DNA of 64,000 nt, from NCBI RefSeq assembly GCF_000024405.1, contig NC_013517.1, positions 3,813,989 to 3,877,988 on the forward strand, read 5' to 3'. This document shows, piece after piece, positions 54,178-56,896 of this stretch. Under the pieces are notes generated by a model. It searched no databases. It was not told where the DNA came from and saw only the letters and a program-made list of their open reading frames with translations. The number at the start of each line of letters is the position of its first letter. Within the stretch, counting starts at the first letter, position 1. Made by a program: the position numbers and the translations under genes. This stretch comes from Sebaldella termitidis ATCC 33386. Its GTDB lineage: Bacteria > Fusobacteriota > Fusobacteriia > Fusobacteriales > Leptotrichiaceae.

Positions 54178-54226
54178 CAAAAAAGGAATCATCTTCTAAA
54201 AAAATTTAAGATAATTCCTTTTTTTA
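54178..54226 (+). terminator. Terminator of the META-domain gene
   Basis: AAAAAAGGAAT and ATTCCTTTTTT arms with an inner CTT/AAG pairing, followed by T residues. Confidence 0.8.
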
Positions 54227-54227
54227 T

Positions 54228-54305
54228 TGCTCCCCCCTCATTTCCGGCTTTATTCTTCCAGATTCCGACCCCCAGAAATCCTCCCCCCTTTAATAAAGCC
54301 ATTTT
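54228..54305 (+). other. C-run-rich hairpin segment
   Basis: Plus strand carries C6 (54232-54237), C5 (54269-54273) and C6 (54283-54288) in an otherwise A+T-rich genome. GGCTTTATT (54246-54254) pairs with AATAAAGCC (54292-54300), placing UCCUCCCCCC in a large loop, and TTTTT follows. It could be a ribosome-site-binding RNA, or its G-rich complement could form quadruplexes. Confidence 0.4.
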
Positions 54306-54306
54306 T

Positions 54307-54503
54307 AATATTCGCTTTTTGATAATTATGCGAACTTTTTAGTTGATGAAAAATTTGTTTCTCTCTATATTTTACATACTTAAATACATTAGATTAATTA
54401 TTCAATTTAAAAATATTAATTATACAAAAAAAATAGATTGACATTTTGTTTTTTTGTATGTATAATAAATTATGATTCGCATAATTATCAATGTGCGAAT
54501 ATT
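54307..54503. repeat. Inverted-repeat-bounded element with an internal promoter
   Basis: A 28-bp sequence at 54307-54334 recurs inverted at about 54476-54503 with three central mismatches; the shared blocks are AATATTCGC and TTGATAATTATGCGAA. Each copy is itself partly palindromic (TTCGC...GCGAA). Between them, TTGACA (54439-54444) and TATAAT (54462-54467), 17 bp apart, form a consensus plus-strand promoter that faces no gene start. Possible invertible promoter segment, MITE or insertion-sequence relic. Confidence 0.5.
54439..54467 (+). promoter_or_regulatory. Orphan consensus promoter
   Basis: Exact TTGACA and TATAAT hexamers with a 17-bp spacer. Transcription would enter the 3' end of the convergent glycosylase gene antisense, after crossing the quasi-palindrome at 54474-54503. 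Confidence 0.6.
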
Positions 54504-55096
54504 TATTTTTTACTTATAAATTTATTATTTTTTATATAAAATCTCCAAAGCTTATCTTTATATTCTTCTGCATAATCAATACCAATTCTCTTAGAGCATA
54601 CTACCTCAATATCTTTTCTGTTTTCATTTTTTTCCAGATATAATTCTTTCCCGCTGATAAGATCGTATCCTGAAAAGGTTCTGTCTATTCCGAGAGCCGA
54701 GCATAATTTTCCTGGTCCGTTGCTAAGATTATGTATATTTTTCACAGGGCTTCTGTTATCAAAAAGAAGATCAAATTCATTCAAAGGCTCTACGGCTCTC
54801 AGCAGCAGTGCTTCTGGCTTTCCCTTCCGCTGACATACTATATTTATACAGTTATACATTCCGTAAATCAAATATACATATGCATGTCCGCCTTCACTAA
54901 ACATCGGCTCTGTTCTTGCTGTTCTTTTATTCTTATAAGTATGGGCGCCCTTATCCTCCGGTCCCACATACGCCTCTACTTCTGTTATCATTGTCTTTAC
55001 AGTCCTGTCGTTTATTTTTCTTATAAGATAATGACCCAAAATTTCGGGCCCTACTTCAAGTGCATCACGTAAAAAATATTCTCTGTCAAACCTCAT
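54503..55096 (-). CDS. 3-methyladenine DNA glycosylase (AAG/MPG family)
   Basis: Base-excision repair enzyme that removes alkylated purines and hypoxanthine from DNA. The 197-residue protein shows the AAG fold markers: RDALEVGPEILGHYLIR near residue 10, the catalytic Glu in MITEVEAYVGPEDKGAHTYKN near 37-57, the minor-groove-intercalating region GGHAYVYLIYGMYNCINIVC near 70-89, LLLRAVEP near 97 and NGPGKLCSALGIDRTFSGYDL near 125. Length is typical of bacterial Mpg. Its last codons overlap the right arm of the inverted-repeat element. It is divergent from argS with an 84-bp gap. Confidence 0.94.
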   Translation of the reverse strand: MRFDREYFLRDALEVGPEILGHYLIRKINDRTVKTMITEVEAYVGPEDKGAHTYKNKRTARTEPMFSEGGHAYVYLIYGMYNCINIVCQRKGKPEALLLRAVEPLNEFDLLFDNRSPVKNIHNLSNGPGKLCSALGIDRTFSGYDLISGKELYLEKNENRKDIEVVCSKRIGIDYAEEYKDKLWRFYIKNNKFISKK

Positions 55097-55180
55097 TGCA
55101 AGCTCCTTTTCTGATAAATACTTTATTTTATGGACATATTTTGATATAATTATTTATATTATATAACATTGGGGTGAATT

Positions 55181-56896
55181 ATGGAACTTATTAATAAACA
55201 GCTTGAAAAACTAATATATGAAAATGTTAAAAATATTTTTAACATTGATTCAGACATAGAAATTCAAAGCTCAAACAAAAAAGGATTTGGAGATTTTGCT
55301 ACGAATTTTGCCATGGTTAATTCAAAAACACTTGGTAAAAATCCAAGGGAAATTGCCCAGACATTCATAGATAATTTTTCAGAAAATGATATTATCGAAA
55401 AACTTGAAATTGCCGGACCAGGCTTTATAAATATATTTTTGAAAAGTAAATTTATAAATAGTGAATTTAAAAAAATAGGGAAAGAAGACTATGATTTTTC
55501 ATTCCTTGATAACGGGAAAAAAACTATTATTGACTATTCATCGCCTAATATAGCCAAAAGAATGCATATCGGCCACCTTAGAAGTACGATTATAGGTGAT
55601 TCCATAAAAAGAATCATGAAATTTACCGGTTTTGAGATATTGGCGGATAATCATATCGGCGACTGGGGAACACAGTTTGGTAAATTAATCGTTGGTTATG
55701 ACAGATGGCTTGATCAAAAAAATTATGAAGAAGACCCTATAGAGGAATTGGAAAGAATCTATGTAAAATTTTCCGAAGAATCCAAAAATGATCCTGAGCT
55801 GGAAAGCATCGCCCGTGAAGAACTGAGAAAGCTCCAGAGCGGTGATGAAAGAAATAACAGACTCTGGCATGAATTCATAGATATTTCACTAAAAGAATAT
55901 GACAAAATCTACAAAAGACTTAATATTACATTTGATTTATATAACGGTGAATCATTTTATAATGATATGATGCCCGATATTCTGGATATACTTGTTTCAA
56001 GAAAGATAGCAGTAGAAGATCAGGATGCTCTTGTTGTATTTTTTGATGAAGATACAAAGCTTCACCCTTGTATAGTTCAGAAAAAAGACGGGAGTTTTCT
56101 GTATTCTACCTCAGATCTTGCAACTATAAAATATAGAAGAGAAGTGCTCCATATTGATAAAGCAATCTATATTACTGATGAAAGACAGCAGGATCATTTT
56201 AGACAGGTATTTAAAATAGCTGAGATACTTGGTGACGGCTTTGATTATGAAAAAGTACATGTTTGGTTTGGTATTATGAGATTTAAAGATGGAATATTCT
56301 CTACCAGACTGGGTAATATTATTAAACTTAATGACCTTCTGGATGAAGCCAAAAAAGAAGTACGTAAAACTATTGAAATCAAAAATCCGGGAATCCCTGA
56401 TGATGAAAAAGAAAAAATTTCTGAAATTGTCGGTATCGGAGCTATCAAATATTTTGATCTTAGTCAGAACAGAACTTCACCTGTTATATTTGAATGGGAA
56501 AAGGTACTGAGCTTTGAAGGAAATACAGGACCGTATTTACAGTATACATATGCAAGAATTATGTCTGTTTTTAGAAAGCTTAACGGAGAGAATATAGGAT
56601 ATAACGAAGAATCAGAAATCATTCTGGAATCTGACATAGAAAGAGACCTGTCGCTTATGCTTCTGAATTTTCCAAATATAGTGGTAAAAGCCGGGGAAAC
56701 ATACAGACCAAACCTGATTGCAGATTACTTATTTGAAACAGCAAAAACTTTCAGTACTTTTTATAATCAAAAGCATATTGCAAATGAAACAGATTTAGCA
56801 CTACGAAATTCAAGAATAACTCTTGCTTCCAAAACGGCACATGTTTTAAAAGCAGGACTGGATCTTCTTGGAATCAAAACTGTCGACAGAATGTAA
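55181..56896 (+). CDS. argS: Arginyl-tRNA synthetase
   Basis: Charges tRNA-Arg with arginine in the cytoplasm. The 571-residue class I synthetase has the Add1 N-terminal domain (about 1-90, with GDFATNFAMVNSKTLGKNPREIA), the HIGH motif in DYSSPNIAKRMHIGHLRSTIIGD near residue 122, the Rossmann core with GDWGTQFG, the FSTRLGNIIKL segment replacing KMSKS near 370, as is usual in many ArgRS, and the DALR anticodon-binding domain (about 450-571). The start has a GGGGTG ribosome site. A queH gene follows after 15 bp. There is no T-box leader, because the upstream gap is only 84 bp. Confidence 0.97.
   Translation: MELINKQLEKLIYENVKNIFNIDSDIEIQSSNKKGFGDFATNFAMVNSKTLGKNPREIAQTFIDNFSENDIIEKLEIAGPGFINIFLKSKFINSEFKKIGKEDYDFSFLDNGKKTIIDYSSPNIAKRMHIGHLRSTIIGDSIKRIMKFTGFEILADNHIGDWGTQFGKLIVGYDRWLDQKNYEEDPIEELERIYVKFSEESKNDPELESIAREELRKLQSGDERNNRLWHEFIDISLKEYDKIYKRLNITFDLYNGESFYNDMMPDILDILVSRKIAVEDQDALVVFFDEDTKLHPCIVQKKDGSFLYSTSDLATIKYRREVLHIDKAIYITDERQQDHFRQVFKIAEILGDGFDYEKVHVWFGIMRFKDGIFSTRLGNIIKLNDLLDEAKKEVRKTIEIKNPGIPDDEKEKISEIVGIGAIKYFDLSQNRTSPVIFEWEKVLSFEGNTGPYLQYTYARIMSVFRKLNGENIGYNEESEIILESDIERDLSLMLLNFPNIVVKAGETYRPNLIADYLFETAKTFSTFYNQKHIANETDLALRNSRITLASKTAHVLKAGLDLLGIKTVDRM

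Follow-up and report, generated by a model that had tools for sequence, protein, structure and literature searches.

The window, meaning the whole 64,000-nucleotide stretch analyzed here, comes from the genome of Sebaldella termitidis ATCC 33386 (G000 below; 4,486,650 bases in 3 contigs) and holds, between two genes, a pair of inverted sites surrounding a promoter. On the left, a convergent META-domain protein gene (plus strand) reaches its 3′ end and is followed, in the interval between this gene and the element, by a bidirectional terminator-like hairpin (54179–54224, no strand assigned) and by a flank that is C-rich on the plus strand and carries three conserved G-runs on the minus strand (54225–54306, minus strand). 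On the right lies a methylpurine-DNA glycosylase gene (mpg, 54503–55096, minus strand), the 3′ end of which faces the promoter and the stop codon of which abuts the right arm of the element. Beyond it, argS, which has its own, weaker promoter-like site at 55131, starts at 55181 on the plus strand.

The element itself (54311–54499, no strand assigned; 54307–54503 with the outer AATA/TATT) consists of two 24-bp sites and a 141-bp interior. The distal site, D (54307–54334, minus strand), contains a 24-bp unit of the form TTCG-N16-CGAA at 54311–54334 with a putative crossover region at 54320–54328, and the promoter-proximal site, P (54476–54503, plus strand), contains a 24-bp unit at 54476–54499 with a putative crossover region at 54482–54490. 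Enclosed by these two inverted recombination-type sites is a rightward TTGACA-N17-TATAAT promoter (54438–54466, plus strand) that matches the consensus at 12 of 12 positions with a 17-nt spacer; P begins 9 nt past its −10 box. P can also be drawn as a hairpin of 9 bp with a T-rich stretch behind it (54475–54500, plus strand), a possible terminator of the rightward transcript, and a 211-nt region folds much better than its shuffles on both strands (z of −5.75 and −6.78). The first-pass annotation had reported inverted 28-bp sites around a consensus promoter with no gene start immediately downstream, and both observations stand. The arms (54307–54334 and 54476–54503, 28 nt each and 141 nt apart) are complementary at 25 of 28 positions (89%). 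Such a pair, defined by at least 25 of 28 matches, at least 7 G+C and at most 300 bp of separation, occurs once in the window and never in 20 simulated 64-kb sequences with the nearest-neighbour frequencies of the window. No gene starts close downstream of the promoter in either direction.

The element occupies the same place in the same orientation in all four genomes of the genus (G000, G001, G002, and G003). A search of 196 genomes found the pair adjoining the glycosylase gene in G001 and G002, at 169 bp start to start, and a more diverged pair, at 155 bp start to start, was seen in G003 by inspecting its sequence. The promoter hexamers are perfect in all four orthologues, including G003, where the spacer sequence has diverged; the spacer measures 17 nt in three genomes and 16 nt in G001. 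The cores read TTATCA in G000, TTAACA in G001 and G002, and TTTACA in G003, and are identical within each pair. No inversion was found among these orthologues.

A search for further copies of the 28-bp site in G000, as the first-pass annotation had suggested, allowed up to 3 mismatches and returned just the two copies in the window. The 251-bp region has no second copy in G000 either, its sole match being 32 bp long and AT-rich. Exact copies of the site were absent from both the genome_contigs and the viral_contigs collections, phage and plasmid collections gave at most weak AT-rich matches, none spanning 80% of the query, and no Rfam match came near the gathering score. Scanning for the full anatomy yielded no match in viral_contigs and eight in genome_contigs, two of which are G002 (JAITVW records, Fusobacteriales bacterium TD116_bin61). 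The other six were rejected as chance matches, their arms being unmatched (8–14 of 24 positions). The half-site resemblance to dif noted in the first pass proved to be at chance level, a relaxed dif (Xer) pattern giving 15 matches against 21 in a reversed control.

A second element at an unrelated locus in G001 (L028), through its weak similarities, led to more elements. We ran a pair pattern of two TTCG-N16-CGAA sites 114–144 bp apart over 100 genomes and obtained four matches in G000, five in G001, and two in G002, with none in the genus for the reversed control. The only matches outside the genus, in G029, belong to a tandem-repeat array and were discarded. A search that relaxed the sites and covered the regions upstream of autotransporter-like genes found a pair in 9 of 85 such regions and none in the reversed control; in G000, 49 autotransporter-like N-terminal matches were found, and 7 of the 49 upstream regions carry an element. 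The fetched loci contain 20 distinct elements, 18 of them in the genus of the window (nine in G000, six in G001, two in G002, and one in G003) and two in G032, a genome from another family of the order. The elements are ~165–190 bp long with an interior of 115–119 bp, save the window orthologues (141 bp; 131 bp in G003). Every element has a sigma-70-like promoter aimed at one of its sites, which we call P, the other being D; the −35 box is poor in G001:C181. An autotransporter gene or operon lies on the D side of the sister elements. A 2210-aa ORF of G000 contains an autotransporter beta-domain; the small ORFs of the Sebaldella operons, the one tested of which had no Pfam match, look FadA-like.

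We then compared the two sites of each element. In 16 pairs, of which those from the pair pattern were unselected for pairing (the pattern fixes the ends only) and those from the other searches were partly chosen on arm likeness, positions 7–15 of the 24-bp site match at 144 of 144 comparisons, though they vary between elements. Permuting the partners 10,000 times gave a mean of 84.7 and a maximum of 118, and one representative per locus group gave 99 of 99 against a mean of 58.0. Mismatches within pairs are confined to positions 1, 2, 5, 6, and 16–21, and the outer arms differ at 2–3 positions per pair. The same holds in 33 Fusobacterium pairs from G081 and G053, where positions 7–15 match at 295 of 297 comparisons and the variable dinucleotide at positions 12–13 at 64 of 66, against 28.7 by permutation. 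Strand exchange would require just this combination of a core identical in partner sites and arms that vary more freely, and positions 7–15 behave as expected of the crossover region of a recombinase. A separate observation concerns L268 (2575–2749, G081:C1), where, alone among the sampled pairs, the core dinucleotides do not match: the element carries the cores of the neighbouring L267 and L274, as if elements had recombined.

The outer flanks of all 20 elements were compared. One locus pair, G002:C7 and G000:C2, has flanks that correspond across the promoter, with a collinear left flank (144/155, 93%) and right flank (102/109, 94%). The interior aligns only when inverted (107/117, 92%), the same-orientation score of 29 lying at the level of shuffled DNA (mean 26.9), and the inversion breakpoints coincide with the sites. 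The G000:C2 promoter faces away from an operon comprising three small ORFs together with one autotransporter-like ORF. The G002:C7 promoter faces the equivalent side, on which the contig runs out. This is a single, interspecies case in which one of the two genomes is metagenome-assembled, and no inversion was seen between 1054k and G001:C19, between 601k and G001:C38, or between the two G032 copies. The invertible switch proposed in the first pass is thus borne out for the family, by this sister-locus inversion and the matched cores; at the window locus itself no inversion was seen, the four orthologues being all alike.

A different locus has the full element in G001 (L028 1505–1671) and one site alone in G000 (L052 1993–2016, G000:C1:3455992). 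The single site consists of one side's outer arm, a palindromic TTATAA core, and the other side's outer arm. Its right flank is identical to that of the element at 35 of 50 positions, a level reached by none of 20,000 random pairs; the immediate left flank is uninformative (21/50), and the region further left aligns. Since a symmetric core would permit deletion instead of inversion, the L052 site looks like a deletion scar, judging from its sequence, though it may instead be an older site into which the element inserted in G001.

The family extends to Fusobacterium-type genomes. Two elements were found in G032 via a promoter-plus-site pattern, and a BLAST search with the G032 element gave 25, 35, 56, and 39 matches in G032, G070, G081, and G053, respectively (matches, not elements). 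From a sample of these matches, 82 loci were examined (80 fetched, plus L088 and L089) and 56 pairs were found; 26 of the 80 fetched loci have no pair under the criteria used, several of them showing other end letters or one site, and were left out of the orientation count. Of the 56 pairs, 38 have a clear promoter with a large ORF in range, and in each of the 38 the promoter faces away from that ORF. The remaining 18 fall outside this count: 10 have no gene within reach, the promoter or gene is unclear in 7, and 1, L269, points toward the gene from a poor promoter. Free flipping would give 50:50, so a strong OFF bias must be assumed: either OFF is strongly favoured in sequenced cultures or flipping is rare. 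A 927-aa ORF of G032 carries an autotransporter beta-domain, and a 1229-aa ORF beside G032:109k has no autotransporter match; the other large ORFs are called autotransporter-like by their position and N-terminal likeness.

Two further features were noted in these genomes. In L303 and L304 (G032), inverted sites resembling these, at 2445 and 2576, precede ORFs starting MLFNSYEFIFLFLPITLI, which we take to be an O-acetyltransferase-like start, so the targets may include surface sugar modification. In L316, L286, and L328, the distal site is now a GC-rich hairpin between T-runs and resembles a terminator.

We also looked for a recombinase. Searching G000 for the tyrosine recombinase family PF00589 gave eight matches. 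One of these proteins, of 190 residues and encoded at G000:C1:432484–433053, has close relatives in G001 (92%) and G003 (75%) and homologues with 44–51% identity in 10 of the 12 genomes of the G032 genus, and other genera of the family to which the window belongs gave much weaker matches. It was not found in G002, a genome that is 86% complete and has elements. All 13 aligned homologues retain the catalytic R, K, HxxR, H, and Y, and the protein scores far below the cut-off of every named NCBIfam recombinase that it matches. No element was detected within 1.5 kb of the gene, and no inverted pair was found near it in any of 20 loci. Since the protein is also encoded by genomes in which we found no clear element, its link to the elements is suggestive at most. 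Judged by its sequence and distribution, this tyrosine recombinase, common to Sebaldella and Fusobacterium, is a plausible candidate enzyme.

Taken together, these results make it quite probable that the feature in the window is a promoter element that can be inverted by site-specific recombination. The two inverted sites would be paired by a recombinase, probably the small tyrosine recombinase with its gene elsewhere on the chromosome, which would cut within the core that must be identical in both; the interior would flip, and the single strong promoter would then point left or right. In sister elements, inversion would switch the autotransporter gene or operon on the D side on or off. For the window copy, we infer the enzyme, any current flipping, and the output. 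In its present state, the promoter is aimed at the 3′ end of the glycosylase gene and probably yields at most a short or antisense RNA, and any rightward transcript would run straight into the P hairpin. The targets of the sister elements lie on the D side, so the window target should lie to the left, where no reading frame of note starts. Once flipped, the promoter would read the G-rich, terminator-ended stretch.

This stretch (54306–54225, minus strand), in which the three G-runs are conserved across four species, leads into the terminator-like hairpin and could encode a small RNA on either strand. Its fold is better than that of shuffles by a z of −2.96, and the outer hairpin is absent in G001. 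Its identity (79/84 in G002 and 57/71 in G001) is not clearly higher than that of the coding neighbours, the glycosylase gene giving 550/590 and 492/587, respectively. With conservation not clearly raised and the outer hairpin missing in G001, we treat the small RNA as a hypothesis, and rather doubt that phase variation at the window copy switches a regulatory small RNA (54306 to 54179, minus strand) on and off instead of a surface protein.

Other explanations of the window copy have to be weighed against an invertible promoter. The most serious is that the copy is a descendant of the invertible family that has stopped flipping and persists as a fixed promoter or terminator between mpg and its neighbour. 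The single orientation of all four orthologues, the lack of a protein target either way, and the 2–3 differences between the outer arms of each pair fit this idea, which we regard as possible though on balance unlikely; against it, the core substitutions between species have hit both sites together (TTATCA, TTAACA, and TTTACA), and the promoter hexamers have stayed perfect despite the diverged spacer of G003. The arms might also covary through pairing in DNA or RNA, or through template switching by the polymerase, with no inversion at all, as the strong folding of the 211-nt region on both strands and the uniform orientation of the orthologues would allow. However, the promoter sits between the arms, so its transcript contains one arm only; the pattern of perfect positions 7–15 and often broken positions 16–21 is unlike a helix; and pairing alone does not predict the inversion between G002 and G000. 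A pure hairpin is thus improbable.

Still less credible is the main alternative of the first-pass annotation, a MITE or an insertion-sequence remnant with terminal inverted repeats. Elements of ~165–190 bp with inverted ends, several copies per genome, and a locus at which G001 has the full element but G000 just one site would all suit it. Yet the end cores vary from copy to copy and match within a copy, where a MITE should have constant terminal repeats and dispersed near-identical copies, a pattern that our searches did not show. Moreover, the single-site locus retains outer arms and a core and is not a plain target, the window copy is syntenic in four species, and many copies lie upstream of surface-protein-like genes. 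If a DNA-looping regulator acted on the enclosed promoter through the two sites as paired operators, this would fit the placement of P 9 nt after the −10 box, the position expected of a repressor site, but the cores differ within one genome, which one regulator would tolerate poorly, and an inversion bounded by the sites has been seen; we give this reading very little weight.

An invertible promoter family of this kind bears on the control of surface proteins. F. varium Fv113-g1 has 44 autotransporters, six of them relatively highly expressed (PMC5720691). The control of the dozens of autotransporters in F. varium-type genomes is unexplained, and the elements put an OFF switch before many of them. 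Locus-specific cores would stop the switches from recombining with one another. Surface phase variation across a whole bacterial group becomes testable, with one candidate enzyme named. Within the family, the window copy is a conserved, puzzling outlier, and it raises the question of whether such a switch can serve a non-protein target.

Promoter inversion is a known mechanism. In Bacteroides, each genome has many invertible promoters at separate loci, and one master enzyme encoded at a distance, a serine recombinase, flips them through a repeat that they share. Here, in contrast, each locus has its own core. In C. difficile, RecV, a tyrosine recombinase, controls switches at several unlinked loci, an arrangement like the one proposed here. 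Among gut invertons detected with PhaseFinder, targets include surface products, and Fusobacteria are not mentioned in the main text, to which this statement is confined (PMC11892184). The family described here is clade-wide, and the literature searched yielded no account of invertible promoters in Fusobacteriota; we claim no priority. A close parallel concerns the group of fimS, hyxS, and ipuS, which are inverted by tyrosine recombinases, some acting at several sites, and in which promoter inversion at ipuS controls the autotransporter UpaE in uropathogenic E. coli CFT073 (PMC6083910). Our elements resemble ipuS in having an invertible promoter between short inverted repeats and an autotransporter target. 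They differ from it in their dimensions and arrangement: ipuS has 7-bp repeats, a length of 260 bp, and adjoining recombinase genes, whereas the elements reported here have 24-bp sites, measure ~165–190 bp, have no recombinase gene beside those examined, and number nine in G000 and dozens in Fusobacterium-type genomes.
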